DNA of 63,209 nucleotides from Oryzomonas sagensis (lineage in GTDB: Bacteria; Desulfobacterota; Desulfuromonadia; Geobacterales; Pseudopelobacteraceae), in the NCBI RefSeq assembly GCF_008802355.1, contig NZ_VZRA01000005.1:1-63209 (forward strand), written 5' to 3'. The notes under the pieces are model-generated. The model made no database searches, was not told where the DNA came from, and was given only the letters and a program-made list of their open reading frames with translations. Below, piece by piece: positions 39,926 through 62,504 of the stretch; positions within the stretch are counted from its first letter, which is position 1; every line of letters begins with the position of its first letter. A program made the translations under genes and the position numbers.

Positions 39926-39932
39926 TAAAAAC

Positions 39933-46717: not shown

Positions 46718-46733
46718 TTAATTAGCATATTAG

Positions 46734-48423: not shown

Positions 48424-48443
48424 GGGGGTAGCTATTTACCCCC
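48424..48443. promoter_or_regulatory. Hairpin in the porin leader
   Basis: GGGGGTA and TACCCCC pair across a six-base loop, about 130 bases upstream of the porin start and within its predicted 5' leader. Purpose unknown; it could mask or stabilise the leader. Confidence 0.4.
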
Positions 48444-48565
48444 CATCACATGAAGGAGACACAAACCTTTAAAAGTCGAGGCACCACTGAAGCCAAGCGG
48501 CTCTGTTTCAGCTAGAGCCAGAATCGATACAAACGACCCGGTGTTGTTGCTTTTTTTAATACTTT

Positions 48566-48581
48566 AGCAACTCTAATGCCA
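48566..48581 (-). promoter_or_regulatory. Sigma-54 promoter of the porin gene
   Basis: On the minus strand it reads TGGCAT-N5-TTGCT with the invariant GG and GC ten bases apart. The predicted start is about 260 bases before the porin ATG, so a long leader is implied. Confidence 0.7.
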
Positions 48582-48877
48582 GATCGCACAAACTCATATC
48601 ACTATGATTTTATTATTATTTTAAAACAGGGAGGGTGTGTACAGCGAGGAGCAACAATAACTATTGGAATGGTATTTAAGCTAATAAATGGTTTTTTTAT
48701 TTATTTGATAGCTAGTTACAGCGATAATAACCAGAGCAATAAATGATAGCTAATATTATAGCAGTAAATTATTTTTAATTTGTTAAATAAATAGTTGTAA
48801 ATTTATATTTATTCACATCTTATATAATATTGTTTACCGCATAAATATTTATACAAATAGTCATTATATAATAGCGA
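48582..48877. other. AT-rich intergenic region upstream of porin promoter
   Basis: About 300 bases, very AT-rich, without a gene. It lies between the porin promoter and the response-regulator stop. It has loose direct and inverted repeats (GATAGCTA repeated, ATAACTATT) and may hold activator sites. Confidence 0.5.
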
Positions 48878-50317
48878 TTATTTGTTTATACGATTTTTAC
48901 AAGAGCTTATACGTTTACTCAGACCTGGCTGTGAGATGCCGAGCATTCTGGCTGCAAGCGTCTGGTTTCCACCTGCCTTATCTAAAGCAGCCTCAGTCAA
49001 GATGTCTTCAACCTCGGAATAAGTAGGTAATCGTTGTGCGTTGAGAAAAACCTGTAAAATTGCAGCATCTCCCAATATACAGGCATCAGGGTTAGATTCT
49101 ATTTCTTGCCGATAATTAATTACATCTTTAAAGCCATCGGCGGACAGCATTATTTTATTCCGGCACACTTCATCATATACTATGGATCGCAGTTCGCGGA
49201 TGTTTCCGGGGAATGCGTAGCGTGACAATAATGCAGGGATTGGCTTCGGGATATTCGGGGGGCATTTCAAACCAAGCTCATGTGCTGCCGCTTTAACAAA
49301 ATGTTCAAGCAACAAGGGAATGTCTTCTTTGCGTTCCCTGAGCGGAGGTATATGGATATGATGAGTTTGCAGCCGATAGAAGAGATCTTTGCGAAATTCA
49401 CCACATTGTTGCTTGCTTAACAAATCATGGTTAGTAGCCAAGACAAATCTGGATTTTGTACGCTTTAACTGGTCGCCCCCAACGGAATAATATTCTCCAT
49501 CCTGTAAAAGCCGCAGTAGCTTAACCTGCGACGACTGGCTTAAATCTCCAATCTCATCGAGAAACAGTATCGTTTCTTCCGCTTGTTCTACAAGCCCGCT
49601 GCGGGAATCATCCGCACCGGTGAATGCGCCCCGCTTGTGGCCAAACAAGGTGTCGGAGAACATCGCATCGTCAAGTCCAGCTATGTTTACAGAGACCATA
49701 GGTTTGTCATAGGCGCATGCTTTGTATAAAGCCCTGGCGATCAACTCTTTCCCGACGCCGCTTTCACCGGTTATTAAGACCGGCTGCTTACTTAAAGCTA
49801 TTGATTCTATATACTGGAAAATGGCAAACATTTTCTTGCTTGTGGTTACAATATCACTAAAGGCTTCCGGGTTCTCCAAACGATCGGTCAGCAGCCTACT
49901 GCGTACATCTCTGCTTTCTCTTTGTAGTTCAATTATGCGAATGGCATGTAATATTCCTGTGATTATGCGATTTACATCATTTGTCTTTACATAGTAATCG
50001 AATGCCCCGACTTTCATGCAGCGAACAGCATAATCAACCTGGTTCATGCCAGTAATAACAATGACAAATACAGATGGAAACGTTTCTGAAATCGTAGTAA
50101 GAAGTTGTTCTCCAGAAACATGCGGCATCGTAAGGTCGAGAAGAACGAGCCCGACGTTCTGTTCATTTATGATGTCCAGCACCTGCCGGCTATCCTGGCA
50201 TTGGATAATGTTATTAATGCCTCCCTCTCCATTGAGTGCCATGGTTAAAGAACGCAACCACGGCAATTCATCATCGACAAGTAGGACTGAAAACGCTGGG
50301 TATAGATTTTTTTTCAT
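48878..50317 (-). CDS. NtrC-family sigma-54-dependent response regulator
   Basis: 479 residues: receiver domain with the phosphoacceptor Asp in VLLDLTMP, AAA+ domain with GESGVGKELIARALY (Walker A), the sigma-54-contacting GAFTGA (FGHKRGAFTGADDS) and DEIGDLSQSSQVKLLR, and a C-terminal Fis-type helix-turn-helix (ARMLGISQPGLSKRI). It activates sigma-54 promoters, several of which are nearby. It overlaps the sensor kinase by four bases. Confidence 0.95.
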   Translation of the reverse strand: MKKNLYPAFSVLLVDDELPWLRSLTMALNGEGGINNIIQCQDSRQVLDIINEQNVGLVLLDLTMPHVSGEQLLTTISETFPSVFVIVITGMNQVDYAVRCMKVGAFDYYVKTNDVNRIITGILHAIRIIELQRESRDVRSRLLTDRLENPEAFSDIVTTSKKMFAIFQYIESIALSKQPVLITGESGVGKELIARALYKACAYDKPMVSVNIAGLDDAMFSDTLFGHKRGAFTGADDSRSGLVEQAEETILFLDEIGDLSQSSQVKLLRLLQDGEYYSVGGDQLKRTKSRFVLATNHDLLSKQQCGEFRKDLFYRLQTHHIHIPPLRERKEDIPLLLEHFVKAAAHELGLKCPPNIPKPIPALLSRYAFPGNIRELRSIVYDEVCRNKIMLSADGFKDVINYRQEIESNPDACILGDAAILQVFLNAQRLPTYSEVEDILTEAALDKAGGNQTLAARMLGISQPGLSKRISSCKNRINK

Positions 50318-52131
50318 GCAAGAGCTCCATTCGCGGCAGCCGGTAGTACGAGAGTAACAGTTGTCCCCTTGCCCAACGTTGAATCTATGGTAAGCACTCC
50401 CCCATGTTCTTTGGCGATTGTGGAACTCACCGAAAGCCCGAGCCCGGTACCGCCCAGTTCACGTTTAGTCGTGTAAAAAGGATCCGTAATATACTGAAGT
50501 TGCTCCGGAGCGATGCCAACGCCCGCGTCGGAAACCTGGAGCTCGACCACCCGTTCGCTCTCATTGTAACCGGTTCTCAGAACGATACTTTCATCCTGAC
50601 TGGAGAGAGCTTGGCAGGCATTCATGATCAGGTTGACAATGACTTGCTCGATACGTTGCGAATTGCCGCGAATTTTCGGTAAATCTTCGGCGTAGTGGGC
50701 GACAAATGAATCCGTCGCTTGTTTTATGGAAGTATCGACGAGCCTTATTGCTGTTTTTGCAACGGAATTCAAGTCTACGACTTCATCCTGCTGAGGAATG
50801 GTGCTTCTGCTGAAATTCTTCAAGTCATTGACAATGCGGCCAATACGTTTTGAAGCTTCGAGCGTTTCAGCCGGCAGATACCAAAGATTTTCCCTTATCT
50901 GCGAGTACTGCCACTTCCCGATGGCAAAATCCCCATTTTTTTTGTACCACTCCTCAGTGATGTGTCTGATAGTCTCGTTCATTTCCGACAGCATTGTCAC
51001 ATTCAAAAGAACCAGCCCATTAGGGTTGTTAATCTCATGGGCTACGCCAGACACAAGCGTGCCTATGGCAGCCATCTTGCTCGTCTGTATCAATTGTTCC
51101 TGGTTGCGACGCAACTCATCCTCGGCGCGCTGGCGCTCTTTAACCTCTTGCGCAAGTGCGGCAGTACGTTGTGCAACCTTACTTTTCAGGGTGCGGGACC
51201 ATATAAAGACAACACTGAGTATTACCAGATATAAAGCTGTTAAGGATCCAGCAATTTTAATGGTCTGTAACCACGCTTCCCTGTGTGGCTTAAGGCCATC
51301 TCCCAGCCATTTGTCATGAATTTTTTTGTACTGGCCTGTCTTGTGCAGAATAGCAAGTCCCTGGGTAAACTGCTGAAGTAATTCTTGATTTCCCTTCCTG
51401 ACGGCAAAACTATAGTTGAAAGCATTCTGGGTTTCTGCAATATACACAACATTTTTTAGTCCCAGCTTTTTTATCAGGTAGGCGGCCACATCTTTGGGCA
51501 AAATTGCATACTCATGCATCCCGGAGTCAAGTAGCCGCAGTATTTGCTCATCAGTATCAAAAAGAGTCAGAGAATCGTTCCACCCCTGTTCTATTGCAAG
51601 GTCTGAAATCACATTGCCCTTCAACGCCATGATATCCTTGCCTTTCAATGTCTCAGAAGGGCTTATCGGAAGCGCTCCCTTTCTGCCGAATATTGAAAAA
51701 ACGACTATCGTATGGGGGGAAAAATCGAAATATTTTGCACGCGATTCCGAATATGCAATGTCCATTAAAACATCTATTTTTCCGTTATAGAGCGATCTCC
51801 GAATAGAGCCAAAAGGTTCAATGGTAAACTGGAGGTTCATCCCCATCGTCTTGGCAATAGCGCGGGTGAGCTCCACACCATAACCGGTGAATTTGCCTTC
51901 TTGGTCAAGAAATTCAAACGGTGGGTGACTGATGATTCCCCCGACAATGATAGGGCGGTTCTCTGTCAGTGGTTCAGCCATGGCAGGGAAAACACACAAT
52001 ACGTGCCAGCAACAAAGCACCATTATTGCCGGAATACGGTGAATGGTTAAGTTTGCTTTTATACCCAGAAATAGTTGCCGCAAATTTTGAGTTACTTTGG
52101 AATTCACATACAATTGCAGAGCTTGATGCAT
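50314..52131 (-). CDS. Sensor histidine kinase with solute-binding domain
   Basis: About 605 residues. After a signal sequence comes a periplasmic SBP_bac_3-like domain (residues 40-280; FTGYGVELTRAIAKTMGMNLQF, LFDTDEQILRLLDSG), one membrane helix near residue 295, a coiled-coil linker and HisKA (SGVAHEINNPNG) with HATPase_c (EQVIVNLIMNACQA, DAGVGIAP, GGTGLGLSVSSTI). It senses a small solute and phosphorylates the adjacent regulator. ATG 52131 has GAGGCGTGTAGGC upstream. The ligand may be a selenium or sulfur compound, by context only. Confidence 0.92.
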   Translation of the reverse strand: MHQALQLYVNSKVTQNLRQLFLGIKANLTIHRIPAIMVLCCWHVLCVFPAMAEPLTENRPIIVGGIISHPPFEFLDQEGKFTGYGVELTRAIAKTMGMNLQFTIEPFGSIRRSLYNGKIDVLMDIAYSESRAKYFDFSPHTIVVFSIFGRKGALPISPSETLKGKDIMALKGNVISDLAIEQGWNDSLTLFDTDEQILRLLDSGMHEYAILPKDVAAYLIKKLGLKNVVYIAETQNAFNYSFAVRKGNQELLQQFTQGLAILHKTGQYKKIHDKWLGDGLKPHREAWLQTIKIAGSLTALYLVILSVVFIWSRTLKSKVAQRTAALAQEVKERQRAEDELRRNQEQLIQTSKMAAIGTLVSGVAHEINNPNGLVLLNVTMLSEMNETIRHITEEWYKKNGDFAIGKWQYSQIRENLWYLPAETLEASKRIGRIVNDLKNFSRSTIPQQDEVVDLNSVAKTAIRLVDTSIKQATDSFVAHYAEDLPKIRGNSQRIEQVIVNLIMNACQALSSQDESIVLRTGYNESERVVELQVSDAGVGIAPEQLQYITDPFYTTKRELGGTGLGLSVSSTIAKEHGGVLTIDSTLGKGTTVTLVLPAAANGALA

Positions 52132-52567
52132 GCCTACACGCCTCAAAATAAAAAATATTTATTTAATATTATTAATTATATCGCACCCACCTCATTGAAC
52201 ACAAGAGAAGAAATGTTAGGGAAATTTCAACTGTGAAATCGGCTTCGATTCGACGCAAAATGACACCTCAGTTCATTTTTTCTAACAACGGACATCACCC
52301 CCCCCATGGCGCCGGAAGGGCAAAATTCACCCATTGTGTGAACAGATCTGCTGGGATATTGAGCGGAATATCCTGATATGAAACGTCCTAACCATTTTCA
52401 ACCTTATTGCCAACAACCAAGAGGGCAGATGATTCAAGATCCATCTGCCCACAAATTGCCGGCGGCCCAGCCAAGCAAATAGCGCATGAAACGTATTCAA
52501 GGTAAGTTCCATCAAGTCCTAAAAGTTTTGCCGAATTCTTTCTCGCCATAAGATCGATCGGGGCCTT
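52132..52567. other. Region with an interrupted reading frame
   Basis: On the minus strand 52295-52549 starts ATG (MARKNSAKLLGLDG), runs 53 codons, meets a TAG at 52388-52390 and continues 30 codons to TGA. The second part (DVSYQDIPLNIPADLFTQWV) looks protein-like, so this may be a decayed gene. I do not recognise the family. Confidence 0.25.
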
Positions 52568-52845
52568 TTAAATTACACTTTTCAACCGTTCGATGAAATC
52601 GGCCATTCCAACCGCAGGTACAGGGTTCTGAGCCTGCCCGAGGGCGGCTGAGATCACACAATTTTCGCGACCAAAAGCAGAACGCGCCTTTGCCTATCGA
52701 TCAGACCAGAAAGCACGTTGCTCGTCTGCGTATTTCCACGCAGCGCGAGCACTTCCCCCGTCAACATGGCGGCGCCAAGCACACCTGCCGTTTTAAGAAC
52801 ATCGACTCCTCGTAGCTCCCTTTGGGAATGAGAGCCTTGCGCTCC
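52568..52845 (-). pseudogene. Decayed Tat-type exported protein
   Basis: One frame carries VDVLKTAGVLGAAMLTGEVLAL, like the hydrophobic core of a Tat signal peptide, and ends at a TGA (52654). Another frame ends in NPVPAVGMADFIERLKSVI and stops at 52568. Two parts in different frames suggest a frameshifted remnant. Low certainty. Confidence 0.35.
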
Positions 52846-52856
52846 TTCCTTTTAAA

Positions 52857-54137
52857 CTATTTTTTTAAGGCTTCCCGTTTTTGCAGCAGGTCTTCCCAAA
52901 AGGATGGTAATCTGATTTCTTTACTCATTATTTCAGTGTCATACCAGCCGGGGATCAGTATACTTTTTTCTCCCGTCCCCCCGGAAACAAGTATCAGCAG
53001 CTTCCCAATCTCGGGACTCGGAACCATTGTTTGCGGATCCTTAATCCGGTAAACCCACTCGGGAACCCCCTTGCGTATTGCGCCTCTCAGATAGCGCTCT
53101 CTATATTCCTTAAACGGAATCTTGGCGTGTTCTTTGATGTAGGCGGTCATTGTTTCCCGCGTCCACCCCTTGTCTGCCAACATTTTTGCTGTATCCTGAG
53201 CAATGATCAGCAGCATCGTTGCACGGTACGGTCTCTCGAGCCCGGCCAAGTGTGCTGCAACAAGGTTCAGGAACCCTGTATCCGACTGCCCTATACCAAG
53301 GATACTGTGCGTTCCTTCAGCGGCCAAAAGCATCACCACGTTTGCATCCGCCGGCACCCCCAATTCAGTTTGCAAAGGAGGCCACGGACTTGCTTCGCGG
53401 TTTTCAGCGAGCATCATGGCAAAATCACCCGGAAAACCGATAGTTGACATGTCCGTCACCCCGGGCCAACTCCCACCGACATTTTGAATGATCAAGTGGA
53501 GAGCCCTACTGATAGACGCGTTGGCCCGCCAACCTCGCCCCAGGCTGTTGGCTCCTGAGTTTATGGCCAGTTGCTTGGAGATGGGACCGCTTACTATTAT
53601 CATCGGTACGTCGGGATTCGTGGTTGTGGCCAGCCCCTTCAGATCGAACTCCGGTGCGGCAACCAGTTCAACCGCCGACAGCAATAGGGGCAAATATTCG
53701 GGTTTGCAGCCGGCCATCACCGCATTAACAGCAATTTTTTCTACGGTTGCAACCCCACCCATCGGTTCCAGGGGAGCGATAACCATGTCGGGCGACAGGT
53801 CGGTTGCTGCCAGCATTTCTCTGACCTTCTCAGGTGTGGGCGGTATGATCGGAAGACCGTCCGTCCATCCCCGGTCATAGAAATATTCATTAACCTCTGC
53901 GACTGCATCGGAGCTGATCGCTACTTTTTCAATCTTGGCACCTGAGAACATGCCAGCTTTAGCTGGTTTTTTTACGCCTGCCTGGATCATAAGTTTTTTC
54001 AAAAGATGGTCTACATATCCACCGTCCTCTCGCTGCCCGGCGGGGTTATAGACAAGGACCTGTTGCGAAGCCGGTACACCGGTCTCCATGAAAAACAGGC
54101 ACAGCAGCACTACAAGGGATATTGTCGCATTACGCAT
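52857..54137 (-). CDS. Exported UGSC-partner domain protein (paralogue of UGSC C-terminal region)
   Basis: About 426 residues with a signal peptide (MRNATISLVVLLCLFFMETG). It shares DGLPIIPPTPEKVREML, GCKPEYLPLLLSAVE and TTTNPDVPMIIVSGPISKQLAINSG with the C-terminal part of the UGSC protein 190 bases upstream, but has no U/C-GSC motif. It is likely a second subunit of the same complex in the periplasm. AAAGGTGATCGTA precedes ATG 54137. Activity unknown. Confidence 0.7.
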   Translation of the reverse strand: MRNATISLVVLLCLFFMETGVPASQQVLVYNPAGQREDGGYVDHLLKKLMIQAGVKKPAKAGMFSGAKIEKVAISSDAVAEVNEYFYDRGWTDGLPIIPPTPEKVREMLAATDLSPDMVIAPLEPMGGVATVEKIAVNAVMAGCKPEYLPLLLSAVELVAAPEFDLKGLATTTNPDVPMIIVSGPISKQLAINSGANSLGRGWRANASISRALHLIIQNVGGSWPGVTDMSTIGFPGDFAMMLAENREASPWPPLQTELGVPADANVVMLLAAEGTHSILGIGQSDTGFLNLVAAHLAGLERPYRATMLLIIAQDTAKMLADKGWTRETMTAYIKEHAKIPFKEYRERYLRGAIRKGVPEWVYRIKDPQTMVPSPEIGKLLILVSGGTGEKSILIPGWYDTEIMSKEIRLPSFWEDLLQKREALKK

Positions 54138-54283
54138 TACGATCACCTTTATCAAGCTCTGCATAGAGGCAAAGTCTCCGTTACAGTACCAGCTTTGCGC
54201 ATCAATAATACATTCGGCTGATACTCACCCAATTACCTTGTGTGCGTTAAAGCCGCTCCCACTATTTATGTGATCAAAAGAAT

Positions 54284-54310
54284 GTGGGGAGAAATACTAT
54301 TTCTCCCCAC
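54284..54310 (-). terminator. Strong hairpin after UGSC gene
   Basis: A perfect 12-pair stem GTGGGGAGAAAT/ATTTCTCCCCAC with a three-base loop sits 17 bases past the UGSC stop. Its T run is short, so it may only partly terminate or may set the relative amount of the downstream gene. Confidence 0.65.
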
Positions 54311-54326
54311 AAGTCAGTAGAAGCTC

Positions 54327-56081
54327 TTAATCTTCAACCACAACGTGGACTGGTTTCATGTCGGTCACGAATGCAGGCCAGACCTGGGACTGCTTGCCAG
54401 GACCACCTGTCACCACAACATGGATCTGCTCGGGCGTTGTGAACCTCTGCACCATGGTGTTTTCGTCCCAAGGACCAAACCCCGCAGGAAGTGCACACTG
54501 GGTAGGCGCGTACCCCCACATCGGAAGCTTGGTTTGCTTGACTAGGTATTCTTCTGCAGCCCGTTTGGTCGGGAAATCACGGGCGATGGTCTGCGCGTGT
54601 TCGGGCCCGAGGAAGAAGAAAGTGAACTTGACTGCATTCTGCCAGTTAAACGGCTGGTCGTACTTAGTGAGACACGAACTGATGCCGGCCGAGGTACCAG
54701 CCGAAGCGGCGGCCAAGGTATTGAGGAGGTCTTTGCCCTTGACACTGGTGTGGTCGGTATTGTTGGTGCCCAAGTAGGCACCATAAGCGGTGACCACGTT
54801 GTCGGTCGACTTGAAGCCATGTTCTACTGCGTACGACTCTTTCCACGGATTCTCTGCTTCATTTTCTCCAAGCACCAAGGCGACCAAGTCGCCGCGGCTA
54901 CCTTGGGTGCTCTTATCCACATCAGGGGGAGCAGCACCGCCGACGACATAGGCAAGCAGGTCAACGAAATACCCGAGAGCGATATTAACCGGTTGACGCT
55001 GTCCAAGGAGCGCGGTTGAATGCGAGATGCCGAGTTTTTTCACGATCGGGCCGTTAATGACGATGACCGGGCTGGTTGGGGCTGTAGTGGTGATATTCCC
55101 TCTGAAATCGTAATCGGGCTGGCTGAGGGCCTTCACCATGGCAAGCAGAAGTGGCATGTGGGAAGGCTTACACCCAGACATGGCGCCAAGCGTAGCAACC
55201 AATTCGACGGTCAACTGCGCCTGGCGCGGGGGAACGACCCAGACAACCTCGCCGGGGTTATGCTTGGTTCCCTTGAGCATGGCTGCTACAGCCTCGGGAG
55301 TGGGGGGGATGACGGGGAGGCCAAGTGACATCTTCTTATCGTATAACATCTTGTTGAGGGCCGAGTAGGTTCCCTTGAACTTGATGTGCTCCGCAGGGTA
55401 TGGCCGTTTTAACTCGACCTTGGCGGATTGTGCCGGCTGCCATTTTGTCGCCATACGCAGGATGTCGGGGAAGATCAGGTCCGCTTTTGCTCTGATCTCG
55501 TTGAGCGGGATCATGCCGAGTGGATGCGGACACTCCACAAAGGCCATTTCCGGCAAGCCGGTACTGGCAACGGTGCCTTTTGCCAAGGCGACGAATTGGT
55601 TGGATGCAATAGTAACTGTGGGGATACCTTCTTTTTCAACTTCGGACTGGTCGACCACCAGCCATGAGGTGCAGGACCCTCAATCGGCTTGGGAGGCGAT
55701 GACCAAATCGGCTCCCAAATCCTTGATTACTTTTGCAATGCGGGCACTTTCCTTCTGGGAGCCGCTGATCTTGATTGTGGACTTATCAACTTCGTAGAGC
55801 TTGATCACCTTTGCTGATGGGACCTGCTCTTTCAACAGTTCTGCGACTCTGTCCAACATATTGTTGCCGTTGTGCTTGTCGTTCCATCTGAGGACAATCG
55901 TCTTCCCTTCCAGCGTAGTGAGACGAGGAGCGGGTTTGACAGGCTTGATGTCGACAATACCCGTCGGGTTCAGCACTTCCCATTGCTGAACATCTTCCTT
56001 GGCCGCTGCCATCGATGGCAATATCGAGCTCATGCCGATAGCCAGCGTCGTCAGAAATGATACTACTGTTCGTTGTCGCAT
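54327..56081 (-). CDS. Exported UGSC-family selenoprotein (Sec134, in-frame UGA)
   Basis: Two reading frames in the same phase flank one UGA (55680-55682). Read as Sec the protein has 584 residues: a signal peptide (MRQRTVVSFLTTLAIGMSSI), a UGSC domain (residues 40-240) with ASQAD-U-GSCTSWLV, and a C-terminal domain (GLPVIPPTPEAV, GCKPSHMPLLLAMV). The U-G-S-C redox motif defines a (seleno)protein family known from metagenome surveys. A SECIS-like hairpin follows the UGA. Export, fusion to the second domain and company of rhodanese and cytochrome are unusual. GGAGGAAAGAGT precedes the ATG. Function is unknown. Confidence 0.88.
55644..55663 (-). promoter_or_regulatory. SECIS-like hairpin for UGSC gene
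   Basis: Sixteen bases after the UGA the RNA can pair GG-CUGGU with ACCAG-(U)-CC around a GGUCG apical loop, with one bulged U. Distance, G-containing loop and the bulged U fit bacterial SECIS rules, which SelB uses. Confidence 0.7.
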
Positions 56082-56139
56082 ACTCTTTCCTCCTTTTTTT
56101 GTGATCCCTTAGCGGGATTCGTGGTGCTAACTCCAATAC

Positions 56140-56865
56140 TCACTCTTCGCTTTTGCCGGTCACCATGACAGCTATGCCTCCCTTGGGGGCATTCCGGGCA
56201 TTTGATTCAATCAGGATCACGTCTTTAAGCGTTCCTGGCTTGGAGGCTATGTACTCGATCTCGATGTTATGCGTTTTCCCTTCGCCAATCTTGATGTCGC
56301 CCTGCTTAACGCCATCAAAATACACAGTTGAACCGCCCTTCAAGAAGATCTTCCTGATTGTAAGCGGAAGGGTGCCGGTGTTCGTCACAGCAAGTTTCAG
56401 TCTCTTTGAAACACCTTGTTTTATGCTGCCAACGTCCATTTTACGCGGCGTGACCGTCAATTTGGCTCCCGGCGCTTCCTTGACCGTGCCGGTCATGACC
56501 GCCTCAACCTGTTGCTGTGCAGGGATATCGATATCGATGGTCACGATTTTTTCAAATGGGCCCGGCGCTCCTTTGGTTGCAAACGACACCTTCAGTTCCG
56601 TCTTTTCTCCTGCTTTGAGTGTGTGCTTTCCAAGCACACTTTCAGTACATGCTCAATTTGTTTTGACACTGCTGACGTGAACATCCTTGCCACTGACGTT
56701 CTCGACGACAGCCGTCATGGTTGCAGGCACCCCCTCATCAACTACGCCGCAATCATGTTGCTTCGGTTCGATACGCAACACATCCGCGGCAAACGCCGAG
56801 GCTGCCGTCATCAGCATTGACAAGGCAGACAGCAAACAGCACGTTTTCTTCAAATAACTACTCAT
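56140..56865 (-). CDS. DUF1573 (seleno)protein with in-frame UGA (Sec71)
   Basis: Two in-phase frames flank one UGA (56653-56655). Read through, the 241-residue protein has a signal peptide, a DUF1573 domain with VKTN-U-ACTES where relatives have a Cys-Gly-Cys-Thr motif, and a second beta-sandwich domain (MDVGSIKQGVSKRLKLAV, NTGTLPLTIRKIFLKGG). Downstream residues (HTLKAGEKTELKVSFATKG) continue the family pattern, which argues against a real stop. GGGGGAAGTAAAAAC precedes ATG 56865. It lies between the cytochrome and UGSC genes. I do not know a described Sec-DUF1573 family. Confidence 0.85.
56621..56639 (-). promoter_or_regulatory. SECIS-like hairpin for DUF1573 gene
   Basis: Thirteen bases after the UGA an eight-pair stem GUGUGCUU/AAGCACAC closes a GGA loop. 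A short stem with G in the loop at this distance fits bacterial SECIS elements. Confidence 0.75.
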
Positions 56866-56869
56866 GTTT

Positions 56870-57349
56870 TTACTTCCCCCCTTTCTTGACTGCTCCGTGT
56901 ACGAGCAGCTTCTTGTTTTGAAAATCAAACTTCGGATCCTGGCCCTTTGTGTGGCATTCTCGGCACGTACTTTCCCCCGGGCTTACAATAAGGCCTTTTT
57001 TGTTATCAGGATTTGCGGCGTGGGCTGCAGCAGCGCCGTGGCAGACCTCGCATTGGACCCCGGTAAACTGGGGTGTCAATTCTCCGTCCATAAAACCGCC
57101 CTCTTTTTCAAAACCGGTGACATGACATTTGAGACAGTGGGAAAGCGTCTCCTGATGTTTCTTTTGCAACGTCACGAAAGCCTTAGCGTGACGCGTTGTT
57201 TTCCAGCCTTTCACAAGATCTTCATGGCAACCGGCGCATGTTTCCGCTCCGGCATACTCGTCTGCAGCAGGCTGCGAATACCCCAGCGGCACATTGCCGA
57301 ATGACACCAACAAGGCAACCGCAAGCGGAAAAACTGATCTACGTATCAT
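56870..57349 (-). CDS. Periplasmic tetraheme c-type cytochrome
   Basis: About 159 residues with a signal peptide (MIRRSVFPLAVALLVSFG) and four CXXCH heme sites: CAGCH, CLKCH, CEVCH and CRECH, plus further His residues (TTRHAKAF, HGAAAAHA) as distal ligands. The order resembles cytochrome c554/NrfB-like multihemes. It would carry electrons to or from the neighbouring redox selenoproteins. AAGGAGCATAGAGTC precedes ATG 57349. It is the second gene of the operon. Confidence 0.92.
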   Translation of the reverse strand: MIRRSVFPLAVALLVSFGNVPLGYSQPAADEYAGAETCAGCHEDLVKGWKTTRHAKAFVTLQKKHQETLSHCLKCHVTGFEKEGGFMDGELTPQFTGVQCEVCHGAAAAHAANPDNKKGLIVSPGESTCRECHTKGQDPKFDFQNKKLLVHGAVKKGGK

Positions 57350-57362
57350 GACTCTATGCTCC

Positions 57363-57779
57363 TTATTCAAGTGGATAGCCGGACTTCTTCCAACCTCTGA
57401 TTGCCGGATTCAAAAGTATTTTCACATCGGTAAAGCCAAGACCAAGCAACTGAAAAGCCAAATCAGAACTATCAGTTTCACCAGGTCCACAATCGCAATA
57501 GGTCACAATAGGCTTATCCTTAGGTATTTCGGTAACGTCTGAATCGGTCAAATCTGCTTTCCAAGGAAAAGAAAGAGCTCCTTTTATATGACCGCTGTCA
57601 TAAATCGATTTAAGCTGGGCATCCAATATGACGATATCGGCTTTTTTATCGATCAACGCTTTCAATTCGTCGTTTGTTATCCTCGGTATATCTGGATGCC
57701 CCGCGTATGCGGCAGGCGCACCAAGCGCCCACAATAGCCCAAGAGCAATAAACAACACTTTCGCCAGTCCTCTTCTCAT
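57363..57779 (-). CDS. Exported single-domain rhodanese
   Basis: 138 residues: signal peptide (RRGLAKVLFIALGLLWALG) and one rhodanese domain with DAQLKSIYDSGHIKGALSFPW and active loop YCDCGPGETDSS (first Cys catalytic). Rhodaneses move sulfane sulfur or selenium. It is the first gene of the selenoprotein operon, 81 bases from a consensus sigma-54 promoter. Confidence 0.9.
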   Translation of the reverse strand: MRRGLAKVLFIALGLLWALGAPAAYAGHPDIPRITNDELKALIDKKADIVILDAQLKSIYDSGHIKGALSFPWKADLTDSDVTEIPKDKPIVTYCDCGPGETDSSDLAFQLLGLGFTDVKILLNPAIRGWKKSGYPLE

Positions 57780-57859
57780 CGATGAACCTCCATGAATTTA
57801 TTTATGGGGACATGAAAGCGGCGTGCTGCCACCCACAACCCACTTCTGAAACCCTTTAG

Positions 57860-57875
57860 AGCAATTCCGGTGCCA
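57860..57875 (-). promoter_or_regulatory. Sigma-54 promoter of the selenoprotein operon
   Basis: On the minus strand TGGCAC-N5-TTGCT, a full consensus match, 81 bases before the rhodanese start. An ATAAC-N4-GTTAT dyad lies about 90 bases upstream. Confidence 0.85.
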
Positions 57876-57959
57876 GCAGCGTTCAAACTGCAACCATATG
57901 TATTAATTAGCTTTTGTTTTTGGAGTTACTTCGTGGGACCATAGCTAGATTTATGAAAT

Positions 57960-57973
57960 ATAACTACGGTTAT
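57960..57973. promoter_or_regulatory. Predicted activator site (ATAAC-N4-GTTAT), selenoprotein operon
   Basis: ATAACTACGGTTAT is a dyad about 90 bases upstream of the sigma-54 promoter, a usual place for NtrC-type activator sites. The same motif (ATAACTACAGTTAT) precedes the rhodanese lipoprotein promoter. A plus-strand 54-codon frame overlapping it has no ribosome site and is not called. Confidence 0.6.
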
Positions 57974-58180
57974 GACGGCGGCAGGAATTCTGAATTTGAG
58001 TGATGAGTTTGCAGTGGAAGCAAACTTATGGGCAGGTGAGGTGCTGTTCGCAGCAATTCGCCTCGGTATTGGACTTCGTCTCAACGCATTTTTTGCGTAT
58101 GCCGATATTCAAGGGGGAATACATACCAATGCTTAGGACTAAGCTAGTGGCGCTCTAGTCGTCATCCTTTCGCACCTCTT

Positions 58181-58465
58181 TCATATAATGTGGGTATTGC
58201 GTGTTTCGTCAGCCCAAATCGTAATGAACACGCCTTCTCTATACTCGCTCACAAAGGCCGGCAGCAATCGCCCCCGCTCCAGGATTTCCATGATCTGCCC
58301 ACGGATATCCCCCCTGAAACGCAGGGCAAGTCCACAGTCGGTCTGCAATTGGCGGGGAGCAGGGATAAGCAGCACTGTCAGCCTGAGGGCCCTGAGAGTG
58401 TCCTCGGCCTTCATCACGCGGTGGCTGGAATTAAATACCGCCAACAAATCTCCTTCTTGCACCAT
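58181..58465 (-). CDS. DUF3343 putative Se/S carrier protein
   Basis: 94 residues: MVQEGDLLAVFNSSHRVMKAEDTLRAL, LLIPAPRQLQTDCGLALRF and ILERGRLLPAFVSEY match the DUF3343 (Se_S_carrier) family, which has a conserved Cys after TD and is thought to carry selenium or sulfur. It lies downstream of the outer-membrane protein on the same strand. GGAGAGTTGACTG precedes the ATG. Role in selenium use is inferred from family and neighbours. Confidence 0.85.
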   Translation of the reverse strand: MVQEGDLLAVFNSSHRVMKAEDTLRALRLTVLLIPAPRQLQTDCGLALRFRGDIRGQIMEILERGRLLPAFVSEYREGVFITIWADETRNTHII

Positions 58466-58618
58466 CAGTCAACTCTCCTTCTACAAAGTATCGCGCTATT
58501 GCACATGAGGCATCAATCACCTCGTGAGTCTTCATGGAGAAAGAGATGCCTTTGCTCAATGGAACACAAAACAGGGGCGTACTCGCGCCGGCGGCCATAC
58601 CGGTCGCATTCACCGCTC

Positions 58619-59455
58619 TCAGGGGGTCTTGTAGTACAGGGCAAACGAATAGTTCGCCCCGGCGGCCGTGTTCTGGCCGTAGATATCGGGGCGGTAGCTC
58701 ACCTCAACACCCCATGCGGGGGTCACCTTGTAGCCCACGGTCAGGTCCAGCTTCCCCAGGTCGAAATTATTGGTGGTCGTAGGGTTGCCGCTGCTGTCCT
58801 GTTTTTTGCCGTTATCGACGCTGAATGTACCGTCCAGCTTGGCCCTCGTGAAGATATTCTTGGTTATATCGAAACCGAATTCAATGAGGTAGCGGAGTTC
58901 ATCGGACGGACCGTCCGCACGCCAGCGGTAGCCGACCTCCACATTGCCGTAGCCGGGGATAAACGGGCAGAGGGAGCGGCCGTAGAGCAACCTGAGTTCC
59001 GTATCCACCTGGCCGTTGCCCAGGGGCAGGGGGTCGGTCTTGTCGTAGGCGCCCGGGATCTTGACGAGCAGTTGCGTCGAGACGATGCCCGCAGCGCTGT
59101 CCAGCAGCTTGTAGCGCAGCCCAAGGTCCACGTCTCCCAGGCCGTAAGCCTTCGAACGGCTCGTGTCATCCTCGTTTTCCAGCCACTTATAGGTCAAGGA
59201 GGTGAGCGCCGTCAGGTCGTTGGTCAGCCCGTACTCGAAATAGCTGCTGATATTGTTGTCCGTAAATTTCCCGTTATTGGCCGTGCCGCCGCGATTTCCC
59301 GACTGGTCGAAGGTCTCGTGGGCATAGTAGTAGCTGTACGACAGCTTTTCATACAAGGCGTTCTTCGGGGCGGTCCAGGCACCGGCGAAGGCCGTGCCGG
59401 CGGATGTGACGACGAGCAGCCCCGCCGCGATTATTTTTACGTGAAACGTATTCAC
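58619..59455 (-). CDS. Outer-membrane barrel protein, ExtI-like
   Basis: About 278 residues, signal peptide (cleavage near AFAGAW), alternating beta strands throughout (LYEKLSYSYYYAHETF, LGDVDLGLRYKLLDS) and an aromatic-rich end (YSFALYYKTP). Size and position next to a rhodanese lipoprotein resemble ExtI, a porin-like protein linked to selenite uptake in Geobacter sulfurreducens. Start is GTG 59455 with AGGAGACAGCGT upstream. Similarity to ExtI is by pattern and context, not alignment. Confidence 0.7.
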   Translation of the reverse strand: MNTFHVKIIAAGLLVVTSAGTAFAGAWTAPKNALYEKLSYSYYYAHETFDQSGNRGGTANNGKFTDNNISSYFEYGLTNDLTALTSLTYKWLENEDDTSRSKAYGLGDVDLGLRYKLLDSAAGIVSTQLLVKIPGAYDKTDPLPLGNGQVDTELRLLYGRSLCPFIPGYGNVEVGYRWRADGPSDELRYLIEFGFDITKNIFTRAKLDGTFSVDNGKKQDSSGNPTTTNNFDLGKLDLTVGYKVTPAWGVEVSYRPDIYGQNTAAGANYSFALYYKTP

Positions 59456-59548
59456 ACGCTGTCTCCTGAGATAAGGTGGTGCCGTCACCGCCGCCATCCC
59501 CCTGCCGGCGCCCCTTGCGGGCGGGCGGCGGGAGGAACGGCGCGGAAT

Positions 59549-59570
59549 GGCCGGAGCCCTGGCTCCGGCC
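59549..59570 (-). promoter_or_regulatory. Hairpin between rhodanese lipoprotein and barrel genes
   Basis: GGCCGGAGCC and GGCTCCGGCC form a ten-pair stem with a two-base loop. There is no T run; it may adjust the ratio of the two products. Confidence 0.5.
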
Positions 59571-59584
59571 CGGCGAATGCCATG

Positions 59585-61519
59585 CTACAGGGCTGTCAGC
59601 AGAGACCAGCCGGTATCTATCGGCATGTTGGGATCGTTGAACGGGGCATCGCGGTGAATGGTGCCGTTTGCCAGTTCATAGAAGGTGCTCCAGACATACC
59701 AGGAGTCATAGTTCTTGATGTTCGGCCACCCCATCAGATCGGCGTAGAGGAAGCCCAGGGTTGAACGCCAGCCGGTGCCGCAGTAGAAAATAACGGTTTT
59801 GTCGGACGTGATGCCCTTGGCGGCCCACATATCGCGCACTTCGGTGTAGCTGCGCAGGGTGGCGTCGCCGTCAACGTAGTAACTGCTGGAACTGTCGGCG
59901 TTATAGCCCCATACCGCGCCGGGGATGCGCCCCTTGCGCGTCAGAACGGGGTCGCTGTAGCCAAGGATTTCGCCGGTGTATTCCTGGATGCCGCGGACAT
60001 CGACGAGCACTTTTCCCGATGGCACGGTGCCGTTGGCGCGATAGTAGTCCGCATAGGTCTTGATCTCCGGCGTCAACGCCTTGAGCTGGTTTTGCGGATT
60101 GATGGTAAAGCTTGCAGCAGTGGCGCTGTGGGCCGTTGTCTCGACCGTACCGCCATTGGCCTTCCAGTAGCTCAAGCCGCCGTTCAGGAAGCGGACATCG
60201 ACACCTGCGTAGCGCAGGGCCCAGTAGACGCGTGTCGTGGCGATCGGGCTATCGCCGTAGACGATGACCGTTGTGCTGTTGCTGACTCCCATGGCGGCAA
60301 GCCGGGCCTCCAGCAGGCTGTCCGATACCAGATCCCAGACGATTTCGTTTGCGTCGGTCACGGGGAATGCGTTAGTGGGATTGAGGTAGTCCCTGGCCTC
60401 CACGTTGTTGGTATTGAAGTGGATCGCGCCGGGAATATGTCCTGTCGTGTACGTGCTGGATGTCGTTCCCCAACTGCATTCGAATATTTTGTAACTGTTG
60501 CCGGACGGGAAGGTTGCCGGCGTCCCTCCGTTGATAAGGGTTTGAACCCATCCGGGGTAGACGACCTGTTTGTAATTGGCCGCATACTCCATGGGGAGGT
60601 CGGGGGTGGTCGCGGCCCATTCCAGAATCGATCCATCGTAGTTGGCGCAGCGGGAATAGCCCATGAGCCGCATCAGGAAGTAGGCGTAGGCGCTTCTGAT
60701 GCCGGAGGTGCAATGCGCAACCACTTCCTTGTCGCTCGTCACCCCCCGGGATTCAAACAGGGCCTTGAGATTCTTGTAATCGAGGCTGGTCCCGTCGGAG
60801 TTATAGAACCACGTATAGGGGATATTGACCGAGCCCTTGATATGCCCCGGCCGCGCTTGGCCGTAAAGCGGCCACCCCATGTATTCCTCATCGGTCCGGG
60901 CGTCGAGAACCACAAAGTCGCTGTTACCCAAGCGATTCTCGATGTGCTCCTTTTGTGCGGAGATGTCGGTGCGCAGATTGGTTGCGGCGGTAAAGGTGGC
61001 CGCAGAGAGCGTGTTGGTACCGGTCTGGGCCGGGCGTTTATCGGCGGACCACTTGTCCCAGCCGCCGTTCAGGATGTGGATATCGTCACACCCCAGGTAG
61101 TCGAGCATCCAGAAGACGCGCCCTGCTGCGCCCCAGGAGTTGATGGTTTCGTCGTAGATGACGATGGTGGCGTCACGGGTGATGCCCGCCGCTCCCAACT
61201 GCTGTTGCAACGTTGCCAGCGGCTTCAGCGCCATGGCGGTCCCATCGCGGTAATCGGCCCAATGGAGGTTGATTGCCCCGGGAATGTGGGACGTAGCGTA
61301 CGTGGCAGCCGCCCTGGTATCGATAATGATCAGGTTCCTGGCTCCCAGGCTGTTCTGGAGCGAATCTGCCGATACGAGAAGCTTCCCATTGGGAAATTCG
61401 CTCATGGCGGCCGTCAGGGTAGACACGGCACTTACTTTGCTCTCCGTGGTACTGCCGCACCCCCCCAGGGGCACGCCAACAAACGCCAAGAACATCAGGA
61501 CGTACAAAATTCGTTTCAT
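59585..61519 (-). CDS. Four-module rhodanese lipoprotein, ExtH-like
   Basis: About 644 residues beginning with a lipoprotein signal (LMFLAFVGVPLGGCGS). Four rhodanese modules follow in two tandem pairs. The first of each pair lacks the catalytic Cys (VIYDETINSWGAAG, VIVYGDSPIATTR), the second has it (AHCTSGIRSAYA, FYCGTGWRSTLG). Tandem rhodaneses move sulfane sulfur, and selenium in some cases. It resembles ExtH of Geobacter in type. Start ATG 61519 has GGGGAGAAAAGAA upstream. A sigma-54 promoter lies 40 bases before it. Confidence 0.85.
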   Translation of the reverse strand: MKRILYVLMFLAFVGVPLGGCGSTTESKVSAVSTLTAAMSEFPNGKLLVSADSLQNSLGARNLIIIDTRAAATYATSHIPGAINLHWADYRDGTAMALKPLATLQQQLGAAGITRDATIVIYDETINSWGAAGRVFWMLDYLGCDDIHILNGGWDKWSADKRPAQTGTNTLSAATFTAATNLRTDISAQKEHIENRLGNSDFVVLDARTDEEYMGWPLYGQARPGHIKGSVNIPYTWFYNSDGTSLDYKNLKALFESRGVTSDKEVVAHCTSGIRSAYAYFLMRLMGYSRCANYDGSILEWAATTPDLPMEYAANYKQVVYPGWVQTLINGGTPATFPSGNSYKIFECSWGTTSSTYTTGHIPGAIHFNTNNVEARDYLNPTNAFPVTDANEIVWDLVSDSLLEARLAAMGVSNSTTVIVYGDSPIATTRVYWALRYAGVDVRFLNGGLSYWKANGGTVETTAHSATAASFTINPQNQLKALTPEIKTYADYYRANGTVPSGKVLVDVRGIQEYTGEILGYSDPVLTRKGRIPGAVWGYNADSSSSYYVDGDATLRSYTEVRDMWAAKGITSDKTVIFYCGTGWRSTLGFLYADLMGWPNIKNYDSWYVWSTFYELANGTIHRDAPFNDPNMPIDTGWSLLTAL

Positions 61520-61560
61520 TTCTTTTCTCCCCACATTTTATTTCTAAATGGCAGTTTTTG

Positions 61561-61576
61561 AGCAATTTGGATGCCA
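61561..61576 (-). promoter_or_regulatory. Sigma-54 promoter of rhodanese lipoprotein operon
   Basis: On the minus strand TGGCAT-N5-TTGCT with the GG/GC elements correctly spaced. It lies about 40 bases before the lipoprotein start. Confidence 0.8.
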
Positions 61577-61730
61577 AGCAGATTCAATGCAAAATAACCA
61601 GTTAAAATAGATAAGCTATTGTTAAAATAAATAACATATGAATGAACTATTTAATTTTTAAATACACCGACAAGCAGTTAATATATTTACAATTTATAAA
61701 GCGCCCTTCCCAATCAGGGCAATTATTAAT

Positions 61731-61744
61731 ATAACTACAGTTAT
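61731..61744. promoter_or_regulatory. Predicted activator site (ATAAC-N4-GTTAT), rhodanese lipoprotein operon
   Basis: ATAACTACAGTTAT differs from the 57960 site at one base; a half site ATAACTATAATC follows nine bases on. It lies about 155 bases upstream of the sigma-54 promoter. Confidence 0.6.
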
Positions 61745-62050
61745 GGCGATATAACTATAATCATTACGGCAAATAACATATAACAGTATACATTATCAAT
61801 ACATATTTCTGTTGAAATAAATTATTTGGCAACATAATTTTATATATATGATACGTAAATTACATTTCACTACATATTGATATTGCTGATACAATGTAAC
61901 AATATTTAATCACCATCGATATAAATATATTTTTTGTAAATAGCAATTTACACCAATATGATATGCTAGATACTTTAATAGACACTCTAGTTTTAGAGTA
62001 TTTGTGCATCAATAAGTGAGAACGGTGAGTCTATCTGAAACGAGCGCGCC
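61745..62050. other. AT-rich intergenic region
   Basis: About 300 bases, well below the window's average GC and without a gene on either strand. It holds further scattered ATAAC/GTTAT half sites. Confidence 0.5.
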
Positions 62051-62176
62051 ATGATCAAAATGACGCAGCTGATGGAAGCCGCCGGTTGAGCCGCAAAACT
62101 TGACCCTGCGGGCCTGGCGAAAACTCTGGGCGGACTTTGGGATTACCGTGACGAAAACATCCTTGAACGTTTATGA
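62051..62176 (+). pseudogene. selD: 5' fragment of selD (selenophosphate synthetase) with UGA
   Basis: The frame MIKMTQLMEAAG-U-AAKLDPAGLAKTLGGL (UGA at 62087-62089) matches the start of SelD, where the catalytic Cys or Sec sits in a GAGUAAK-like motif. It then runs DYRDENILERL and hits a TGA at 62174. The remaining 300 residues are absent, so this is a truncated copy; an intact selD should exist elsewhere. SelD makes selenophosphate for Sec synthesis. No clear ribosome site precedes it. Confidence 0.65.
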
Positions 62177-62504
62177 GTTATTTCATGTGGTGGCGAAAAT
62201 GCCGCAGAAAGGTGATTGATGGGGCGCGCGCCTATGAGGCTGATCAGCCAAAGTACGGCAAAAAAATACCCACGGTCGTGGAGGTTCGGGAGACATGCCG
62301 GGATTAAATAAAATTGTACCCATAATTGAGCATTGGTAATCGGAATTTTTCATATCCAAATGCACATTTTCCCCTGAAACAAATCAAATTATTCCGAGCC
62401 ATCATTGACTAATCGGTTTTAGGTGCTAATAGTTTAGAATATATACAATTATTGTATGATGCTAGAGGCCGCAATGAATCGATTCGACTGAGGGGGAGAC
62501 CATC
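62177..62504. other. Region between selD fragment and mscL
   Basis: A 44-codon plus-strand frame (62173-62307, IDGARAYEADQPKYGKKIP) begins in an ATGA overlap with the end of the selD fragment. I do not recognise it. The rest appears empty apart from the mscL ribosome site. Confidence 0.35.

Follow-up and report, generated by a model that had tools for sequence, protein, structure and literature searches.

Gene organization of the locus

The window, a stretch of 63,209 nucleotides from Oryzomonas sagensis, contains five consecutive minus-strand genes between positions 52857 and 57779. They encode a rhodanese, a tetraheme cytochrome, a DUF1573 selenoprotein, a UGSC-fusion selenoprotein and a paralogue of the C-terminal domain of the latter (Table 1). 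An earlier note on this DNA had described this order on a common strand, and reading of the open frames of the window gave the same arrangement. All five proteins are predicted to be exported, as had also been proposed, since their N-termini, judged by eye, look like signal peptides. The set reaches past the genes covered by that note, to a two-component system, selB, a tRNA-Sec and an island.

Table 1. Features of the operon and its surroundings in the window (export predicted by eye).
Feature	Position	Strand	Basis or remark
Genomic island, directly after tRNA-Ser(CGA)	39926..62323	.	about 22.4 kb, absent from sister genome G049
Second SelB	42522..44465	-	TIGR00475 over cut-off
Extra tRNA-Sec, third genome copy	45569..45666	-	ARAGORN; RF01852 77.7 bits
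Outer-membrane porin, DESULF_POR1-like	46734..48296	-	NF033939 1.2e-19, below cut-off
Response regulator, sigma-54 activator type	48878..50317	-	GAFTGA loop in translation; family by eye
Histidine kinase, periplasmic SBP_bac_3 (amino-acid-type) sensor	50314..52146	-	PF00497 7.4e-29, PF02518 7.8e-25
Decayed remnant of TAT-exported DUF6282 amidohydrolase gene	52511..52836	-	comparison with L080
Exported paralogue of UGSC C-terminal domain, without Sec domain	52857..54164	-	sequence comparison
Exported UGSC-fusion selenoprotein, Sec134, N-terminal GrdB-like Sec domain and C-terminal domain	54327..56081	-	PF24696, model, hhalign
SECIS-like hairpin 3' of UGSC UGA, GGCUGGUGGUCGACCAGUC	55645..55663	-	comparative
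UGA (Sec) codon of UGSC, codon 134	55680..55682	-	frame reading; sole internal TGA
Exported DUF1573 selenoprotein, motif NUACT, Sec71	56140..56865	-	PF07610, TGA conservation
SECIS-like hairpin 3' of DUF1573 UGA, GUGUGCUUGGAAAGCACAC	56621..56639	-	conservation and compensation
UGA (Sec) codon of DUF1573, codon 71	56653..56655	-	frame reading; sole internal TGA
Exported tetraheme c-type cytochrome, c554-like	56870..57349	-	PF13435 1.8e-18
Exported rhodanese, active-site loop YCDC (CxC)	57363..57779	-	PF00581 1.7e-11
Putative sigma-54 type promoter site, TGGCACCGGAATTGCT	57860..57875	-	81-96 nt upstream of rhodanese start
Se/S-carrier-like protein (DUF3343), just upstream of operon	58181..58465	-	PF11823 8.4e-16

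The rhodanese matches NF041203 (rhodanese-related (seleno)protein) with 60.1 bits (E 1.6e-16), under the cut-off of 115; it has CxC in place of the UGA-encoded CxU of that type. Each of the 17 rows read, which represent 15 distinct genes, has Cys-x-Cys at the active site; such a dithiol is no less compatible with a thiol relay than with sulfur transfer. The cytochrome has four CxxCH motifs, as do those of six operon relatives, and the C-terminal part of UshA_like_PCGU matches it below the cut-off (NF041198, 8.4e-37). The paralogue is 30% identical to the UGSC C-terminal domain over 339 residues (E 9e-40). It adjoins UGSC in five of the six other operons of this kind and was not found in that of genome G051. 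Directly downstream lies the DUF6282 remnant, the two ends of which are 53-54% identical to the intact gene of locus L080 (E 1e-15 and 1e-7; PF19799, 4.5e-64). These ends are in different frames, one contains stops, and the middle is missing; the remnant itself has no Pfam match.

The putative promoter site before the operon is the only perfect match in the window to TGGCACN5TTGCW, which we take to be the sigma-54 consensus. G051 likewise has a perfect site at -94, and L084 has one at -91 in which the spacer differs. The kinase is 47% identical to that of G051 in the sensor and 66% in the kinase part, and the response regulator is 80% identical.

Two selenoproteins

With TGA read as Sec, the DUF1573 gene is one open frame of 241 residues, starting with ATG at 56865, and the UGSC gene one of 584 residues. 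Both contain a single internal TGA that is spanned by a Pfam match, in keeping with the earlier claim of two selenoproteins, and both are indeed split by ordinary ORF calling as had been stated. PF07610 covers residues 31-126 of the DUF1573 protein (3.4e-26, 91.6 bits, cut-off 26.1). PF24696 covers residues 35-212 of the UGSC protein (7e-36, 124.4 bits, cut-off 25), which narrowly misses the NF041046 equivalog cut-off (121.6 against 125 bits). The terminal stop of the DUF1573 gene is likewise TGA.

Homologues had been proposed as a check on both UGA positions. Codon 71 of DUF1573 is TGA in 7/7 operons (the window and six relatives). Across the phylum, Cys occupies this position in 13 of the 20 loci read, the window's own among them; Sec replaces the first Cys of CxC, NUACT standing against CGCT in the 13 Cys relatives. 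The hairpin that follows is kept in all seven genomes, with a GC to AU compensation in L063, and has a z of -2.2; it is reached by 82 of 5000 synonymous shuffles. The protein resembles OS_HP2, a DUF1573 selenoprotein (PF07610, NF041425), in its domain, its UxC and the use of Sec for the usual Cys of CGC. It differs by the NUACT form and by recurring with a cytochrome and UGSC, and scores below the NF041425 cut-off (7.6e-12, 45.4 against 100 bits).

For UGSC, at least 84 family matches were found in 38 of 395 genomes, at most eight candidates being scored per genome; exactly one in-frame TGA is present in 76 of 84. Four genomes have at least eight matches each, a multiplication of paralogues. 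At the 99 places read, the codon is TGA in 56, TGY in 40 and GGG in two, and falls in an assembly gap in one; relatives thus carry Sec or Cys with one exception, as the two GGG rows are one gene fetched twice. In the clade of the window protein, all 34 rows have TGA. Both columns of the U/C pair in the motif QADUGSCTSW are invariant in 61 aligned sequences, Sec being written as Cys. A hairpin with at least six of seven pairs occupies the corresponding position in 49 of 64 UGA genes and in none of 37 Cys genes; in the window alone it is not significant (reached by 1047 of 5000 synonymous shuffles). Hairpins after both UGAs, of DUF1573 and of UGSC, recur across species. The Cys form occurs in haloarchaea, Sphingomonas and actinomycetes, names that suggest aerobes, and relatives of the window's cytochrome and DUF1573 were not found beside these genes.

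UGSC ranks among the most frequent selenoprotein families of aquatic samples (excerpts of PMC2398784 and PMC9402790), and a UGSC/Unknown_1 fusion reported from ocean samples (PMC2398784, same excerpts) is probably the one found here. The window protein shares family (PF24696/NF041046) and U-G-S-C motif with known UGSC; compared with those in the excerpts of PMC2398784, it is exported, by prediction, and stands in an operon with a tetraheme cytochrome, a Sec-DUF1573 and a rhodanese. The portions of the selenoprotein literature searched give no function for UGSC.

Homology with the selenocysteine domain of GrdB

The Sec domain of UGSC is homologous to that of GrdB; no earlier statement of this was found in the literature searched. 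Alignment by hhalign with UGA-bearing GrdB relatives gave a probability of 96% (E 2.2e-9) over about 100-120 columns. Sec falls on Sec, UGSCT aligns on UGTCT of GrdB, and EKxGIP and PHPLG are common to both. TIGR01918 (GrdB) scores 19.7 bits, under the curated cut-off of 65.45; UGSC works like GrdB at most, and is not classed as GrdB. GrdB-type Sec domains are known from reductive reactions. An alignment with this catalytic domain speaks for an organic substrate that is cleaved reductively.

In the AF2 model of the fusion (pLDDT 93), Sec134 lies just after strand 126-132, at the beginning of helix 135-150. Together with the GrdB match, this model speaks for a flavodoxin/Rossmann-like GrdB Sec domain, where excerpts of PMC2398784 suggest a Trx-like fold. 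No solved structure resembles the whole fusion, the best TM-score by query being 0.19.

The likeness to GrdB/GrdF/GrdH (TIGR01918) and PrdB lies in the homologous domain, the aligned Sec, the UGxCT of GrdB and the presence of several paralogues in one genome. UGSC differs by its predicted periplasmic location, its link to a cytochrome and a C-terminal domain without match; no pyruvoyl subunit (GrdE/PrdA) or GrdA relative was seen among the operon proteins with Pfam and NCBIfam.

Occurrence of the gene set

A search for the same gene order, as the earlier note had advised, found the rhodanese-cytochrome-DUF1573-UGSC set in six relatives; with the window, the four genes co-occur in seven genomes. 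In G121, a cytochrome-DUF1573 pair, with UAC in the latter, is accompanied by an SBP-type kinase and a similar regulator, with no UGSC in the 17 kb examined; a single-domain UGSC is located on another contig. Such a pair is as expected of a shared electron module. One Nitrospiraceae MAG has five UGSC fusions (L080, L083, L084, L103, L104), of which one adjoins a rhodanese-cytochrome-DUF1573 set in the stretches examined. This recalls the several substrate-specific protein B complexes that feed one reductase (PMC10838667, excerpts). Most gut Desulfovibrionaceae loci have UGSC and the paralogue, with no linked DUF1573 or cytochrome. Neighbours of UGSC elsewhere include organic-acid transporters, CoA-transferases, hydrolases and DUF6282 amidohydrolases, each family accounting for 2-5 of the 84 and 77 proteins scanned in a scan without control set.

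A genomic island with its own selB and tRNA-Sec

The operon sits on a movable island with its own selB and tRNA-Sec. In the sister genome, the end of tRNA-Ser and the position equivalent to 62324 are separated by just 98 bases. The GC content is mostly 0.45-0.55 (range 0.39-0.62) in the island and 0.51-0.67 before it. No word of 12 bases or more is shared as an att repeat between 39801-40300 and 61401-62700, and inspection of the listed ORFs by eye showed no integrase.

The genome has one selA, two selB and three tRNA-Sec, all over curated cut-offs. The island tRNA-Sec differs at 4 of 94 bases from that of the G051 cluster, and at 8 and 11 from the two others of its own genome. Likewise, the island SelB is 86% identical to that of the G051 cluster and 75% to the other copy of its genome. 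Elsewhere, tRNA-Sec and SelB stand beside UGSC in L146, and SelB near UGSC in L087. The porin is 74% identical in the G051 cluster, where the Se/S-carrier-like gene is syntenic (65% identical). An upstream four-rhodanese lipoprotein is ExtH-like (NF040901 4.5e-27, below cut-off). This gene is found without UGSC in G052, G025 and G031, beside an outer-membrane barrel in the first two, and is thus probably a separate unit.

Proposed function

The component families were already known; their combination into one system is new. We tentatively regard the set, at somewhat below even chances, as a counterpart of glycine reductase that works in the periplasm and is driven by a cytochrome. Its substrate enzyme would be the UGSC fusion, with the nucleophilic Sec of the UxxC pair at a helix start of the GrdB-like domain and the substrate held by the C-terminal domain, aided by the separate paralogue. 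In a small organic molecule, the selenolate would attack an activated carbon and break a C-N, C-O, C-S or C-halogen bond. The Cys partner would first resolve the resulting selenenylsulfide or selenoether, followed by the UxC of DUF1573. This second selenoprotein would in turn be reduced by the tetraheme cytochrome, and the CxC rhodanese would act as an additional thiol relay. The sigma-54 two-component system, with its amino-acid-type sensor, would switch the operon on when substrate is present, and the block would bring its own tRNA-Sec and SelB along when it moves to another genome. The selenoproteins, the homology of the Sec domains, the recurrent gene set and the island come out of the computation, whereas export and the sigma-54 control parts were read by eye or from motifs; we infer that the system works reductively, and likewise the cleavage chemistry, the sequence of electron carriers, the domain roles and the nature of the substrate.

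The periplasmic redox pathway of the earlier note is retained as to the adjacent set of predicted exported proteins, the two selenoproteins and the cytochrome; sulfane sulfur or selenium as substrate and electron flow to the cytochrome were not upheld. That direction would belong to a periplasmic oxidative catabolism in which the nucleophilic attack is the same and the substrate is the electron donor, with electrons leaving through DUF1573 and the cytochrome to the cell exterior. The tetraheme, predicted exported cytochrome and the catabolic genes often near UGSC elsewhere speak for it, and the sequence alone is compatible with oxidation, but GrdB-type Sec domains are known from reductive reactions (PMC10838667, excerpts), and we consider it rather unlikely. 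A transfer of sulfane sulfur from the rhodanese to the Sec proteins accords with the rhodanese fold and with rhodanese genes immediately adjoining single-domain UGSC in L085, L095, L146, L147 and L149, and, in L144, a UGSC truncated where the contig ends. It is quite improbable given the uniform CxC, a loop in the window protein without the Arg of the canonical rhodanese active-site motif, and an operon in which no sulfur-oxidation genes were seen.

A periplasmic thiol/selenol relay for detoxification or repair, with oxidised protein thiols, selenite, tellurite or metals as the species reduced, is suggested by the rhodanese and the Se/S-carrier-like and ExtH-like genes nearby, and predicted selenoproteins are for the most part considered redox proteins (PMC9312934, excerpts). 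We hold it unlikely: the four-rhodanese gene also occurs without UGSC, and the multiplication of UGSC and its frequent organic-acid neighbours suit substrate diversity better than general repair. Decay, with the UGAs as real stops, might be read from the decayed gene directly downstream and from the split ORFs, but is already contradicted and hardly credible: TGA is constant in DUF1573 and the window's UGSC clade, hairpins are kept after both UGAs, and the frames behind them are 60-90% identical between G000 and G051 in 60-residue blocks.

The reductive reading has a parallel in FarB of monofluoroacetate dehalorespiration in Synergistota, a GrdB-type Sec protein linked to C-F cleavage and proposed for respiratory C-X cleavage, with lateral transfer of its operon suggested, as for the window block (PMC10838667, excerpts). 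FarB differs in being of GrdB/GrdE type, and the word cytochrome is absent from the text of PMC10838667. The Tso and SAO operons also hold several selenoprotein genes each, but of other families (TsoA/B/C; organometallic), and the excerpts of PMC13188914 name no UGSC or DUF1573 with them.

More tentatively, the set could be a selenolate-based periplasmic respiratory reductase, in which a multiheme cytochrome supplies GrdB-type chemistry with electrons by way of a second selenoprotein, and an exchangeable enzyme part brings different substrates to one electron module on an island with its own tRNA-Sec and SelB. If true, this would add to flavin reductases and molybdenum enzymes a further means of using an organic electron acceptor outside the cytoplasm. 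The link to GrdB gives UGSC a testable chemistry, and the sensor kinase offers a direct route to the substrate. Through an island that carries selB and tRNA-Sec along with selenoproteins, the Sec trait or its dosage could pass from one genome to another. With this operon, Sec-dependent reductive cleavage would also take place in the periplasm and draw its electrons from a cytochrome, and the set may serve the breakdown or respiration of small organic molecules outside the cell membrane.

Organization and conservation of the operon

The earlier note had described five successive minus-strand genes encoding a rhodanese, a tetraheme cytochrome, a DUF1573 protein, a UGSC fusion and a further protein paralogous to the C-terminal domain of UGSC. 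This series was recovered. As the note had also claimed, the DUF1573 and UGSC genes contain an in-frame UGA. Each has a single internal one, which is spanned by the Pfam domain in both. The N-terminus of all five proteins resembles a signal peptide by eye. UGSC fusions from Chloroflexota and Syntrophomonadaceae metagenome-assembled genomes (MAGs) appear, again by eye, to carry a lipoprotein-like signal instead, so that an extracytoplasmic location seems conserved though the type of signal varies.

Positions of the island, the operon and associated features in the window
Feature	Position	Strand	Remark
Genomic island	39926-62323		follows tRNA-Ser(CGA)
Second SelB gene	42522-44465		on the island
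Third tRNA-Sec gene of the genome	45569-45666		on the island
Decayed DUF6282 piece	52511-52836
Five-gene operon	57779-52857	minus	rhodanese first
Four-rhodanese lipoprotein gene	58619-61534		ExtH-like, below cut-off

The search for the same gene order elsewhere, proposed in the note, found seven genomes in which the rhodanese, cytochrome, DUF1573 and UGSC genes occur together. Besides the window, these are G051 from the same genus, G394 from another family of the same phylum, the Deltaproteobacteria MAGs L081 and L082, L084 (a Nitrospiraceae MAG) and L106, a Syntrophaceae MAG where UGSC and the paralogue come first. The paralogue is present in six of the seven, and was not found in G051. All seven cytochromes have four CxxCH motifs. 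The active site of the rhodanese is C-x-C in the 17 rows read, which represent 15 distinct genes.

Parts of the set also occur separately. In G121, the cytochrome adjoins a DUF1573 gene of the same UAC form as in the window, alongside a kinase of the SBP type and a response regulator that resembles the one in the window; no UGSC gene was found in the 17 kb covered, and a single-domain UGSC sits on another contig. Most loci of gut Desulfovibrio, Mailhella and Bilophila have UGSC and the paralogue without linked DUF1573. A rhodanese adjoins a single-domain UGSC in five loci; in L144 it adjoins a UGSC truncated by the end of the contig.

Selenocysteine codons

The DUF1573 codon is TGA in all six other operons, always within the motif TNUACT, in proteins 47-81% identical to that of the window, which upholds the proposed selenocysteine at residue 71. 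A hairpin 3' of this UGA is kept in 7/7 operons, including one compensated base pair. There are 31 DUF1573 matches in the phylum, and the codon was read in 20 of these: three have the UAC form (window, G394, G121), 13 have CGCT and four have another Sec form. The latter, found in other genomes of the phylum, show KPCUG (L182, L185, L187) or GUGC (L186). The selenoprotein forms of DUF1573 are thus more varied than UAC alone. A sequence search of DUF1573 against solved structures returned one match, at chance level.

The UGSC family has at least 84 matches in 38 of the 395 genomes of the phylum. Among the matches listed, 76 have exactly one TGA, seven have none, and one has a TGA and two other stops. 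At least eight matches each were found in G107, G270, G279 and G322, mostly with one TGA. The codon corresponding to Sec134 was read at 99 places, giving 56 TGA, 40 TGC or TGT, two GGG (one gene read twice) and one assembly gap. Upon removal of seven duplicate places (contig pairs L059/L143, L060/L095, L064/L098 and L066/L099), the 92 remaining comprise 50 TGA, 40 TGC or TGT, one GGG and one gap; the ratio of TGA to Cys codons is not a frequency, since the probe used for most loci, DCG[SA]CT[SA]W, favours Cys forms. Across 61 sequences, the motif shows no variation in its Sec/Cys column or its Cys column. A single-domain UGSC with Gly at the Sec position (DGDRC) lies among Sec paralogues at 8001-8513 of L095, the same contig as L060.

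In UGSC, a hairpin score attained by 65/65 UGA genes was attained by 41% of 37 Cys genes. A hairpin of the window type (offset 19) with at least six of seven pairs was found in 49 of 64 UGA genes and in none of 37 Cys genes. Taken alone, the window hairpin is no better than shuffled or synonymously recoded sequences, so the case for it lies in how UGA genes compare with Cys genes; because these sequences are related, the p-value is not strict. Over the cut-offs, the genome of the window contains one selA, two selB and three tRNA-Sec genes.

A genomic island with its own SelB and tRNA-Sec

In the sister genome G049, which is about 95% identical over the flank, the end of the tRNA-Ser gene is joined to the equivalent of window position 62324 with 98 bases between. 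As both flanks are so close there, the stretch of about 22.4 kb is an insertion. No repeat of the tRNA end that would account for the island was found when 39801-40300 was compared with 61401-62700. The G051 cluster lies at about 3.34-3.36 Mb, and the tRNA-Ser flank of that genome at 2.69 Mb.

Of the 76 genomes of the family, two have UGSC, and each of these also has a second SelB; a second SelB occurs in two of the 74 remaining genomes. Between the island tRNA-Sec and its counterpart in the G051 cluster, 4 of 94 bases differ. The other two copies in the window genome differ from the island copy at 8 and 11 positions, and 3 of 94 bases separate them from one another. Farther afield, L146 (a Chloroflexota MAG) has tRNA-Sec and SelB genes after UGSC, and L087 (a Desulfovibrio MAG) has a SelB gene near it. 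G052, which is of the same genus as the window and lacks UGSC, also has two SelB genes (C1:467271 and C1:514549; L173, L174), some 47 kb from each other. SelB matches with one in-frame TGA in G006, G009, G055 and G004 may be assembly errors, read-through ends or real.

In a tree of 61 UGSC sequences, the window copy falls within one group of 34 rows (support 100/100), all with Sec; the exported-looking fusions of L067, L144 and L147 fall outside. L080, a Nitrospiraceae gene, pairs with the window copy (97/75); other Nitrospiraceae genes form a group with the G051 copy (100/99). UGSC therefore seems to have been swapped inside an otherwise syntenic block.

The four-rhodanese lipoprotein gene occurs without UGSC in G052, G025 and G031, and is adjoined by a barrel gene in G052 and G025. 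It looks like a separate unit that was joined to the island.

Regulation

The window has a single perfect sigma-54 site, 81-96 nucleotides before the rhodanese gene; in G051 and L084, perfect sites are found at a near-equal distance. A site ahead of every cluster was ruled out, as 18 of the 21 cluster starts tested are without a perfect one: three sites are perfect, four have two mismatches, and 14 have at least three mismatches or are missing. Downstream of the operon, a sigma-54-type regulator is encoded together with a kinase (50314-52146) whose residues 66-282 form an SBP_bac_3 sensor. Between the window genome and G051, identity is 47% for the sensor and 66% for the kinase part.

Relationship of UGSC to GrdB and predicted fold

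A profile of 61 UGSC fusions was aligned by hhalign to a profile of six UGA-bearing GrdB-type proteins with a probability of 96% and an E-value of 2.2e-9 over about 100 columns, placing Sec on Sec and UGSCT on UGTCT, and including an EKxGIP stretch and PHPLG. The same alignment was obtained with a profile of eight exported forms. Weak single-sequence matches are in agreement (PrdB, 2.8e-6; GrdH, 2.1e-4), and TIGR01917 was matched at 0.001 by six of the 61 fusions. UGSC scores below the curated GrdB cut-offs and so is not filed as GrdB.

The AlphaFold2 model built with 61 sequences (pLDDT 93; 72 with eight sequences) has an α/β N-terminal domain, with Sec134 predicted between strand 126-132 and helix 135-150. 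When solved structures were searched with the full-length fusion, neither sequence nor fold comparison found anything that covers the whole protein. Foldseek gave 17 matches at E-values of 0.001 or better, all partial, with query TM-scores of at most 0.19; these are flavodoxin-, FtsZ- or Rossmann-like. A thioredoxin-like fold was suggested for UGSC in 2008 (PMC2398784); it is unsupported by the present model and its matches. In L050, L053 and L062, the C-terminal domain adjoins the Sec domain in a different reading frame, before it in the first two and behind it in the third. The two domains thus behave as partners.

Genomic neighbours of UGSC

Pfam scans covered 84 of 115 and 77 of 110 neighbouring ORFs. 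The commonest families near cytosolic-looking fusions were TctA/TctC, TRAP transporters, FAD oxidoreductases, CoA-transferase III, MmgE/PrpD and SDR, each representing 2-5 of the 84 and 77 proteins, tallied without a control set. Labels such as MscL, IclR and glycosyltransferase, and HEMER for a 148-aa ORF, were assigned by eye. The closest relative of the window UGSC, L080 (72% identical), is surrounded by genes for a D-2-hydroxyacid dehydrogenase, an FAA hydrolase, a creatininase, a DcuC-type carrier and a TAT-exported DUF6282 amidohydrolase. DUF6282 recurs next to UGSC genes of exported, cytosolic and haloarchaeal type, and the decayed piece at 52511-52836 is what the window retains of one. 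Plasmids, haloarchaeal ones among them, also carry UGSC-like fusions (24 matching records); on the Natrinema plasmid L125, the fusion is a Cys form with DUF6282 adjoining.

Discussion

Every component family is already known and curated. In one literature library, the passages found that name UGSC with selenoproteins assign it no function, and searches for the GrdB link, the operon and the island gave no published description.

Glycine reductase pairs a substrate enzyme that bears Sec with a second, small selenoprotein. By analogy, UGSC would be the Sec-bearing substrate enzyme and DUF1573 the second selenoprotein, with the tetraheme cytochrome as a putative electron source replacing thioredoxin. 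PMC10838667 offers two precedents: a single reductase system is fed by several protein B complexes, and C-F cleavage in respiration has been proposed for a GrdB-like protein. The same components could instead perform an oxidation, with electrons exiting through the cytochrome, or serve in detoxification or sulfur transfer. UGSC may work like GrdB. Its neighbours point to a step in the breakdown of small organic molecules, with different paralogues perhaps acting on different substrates.
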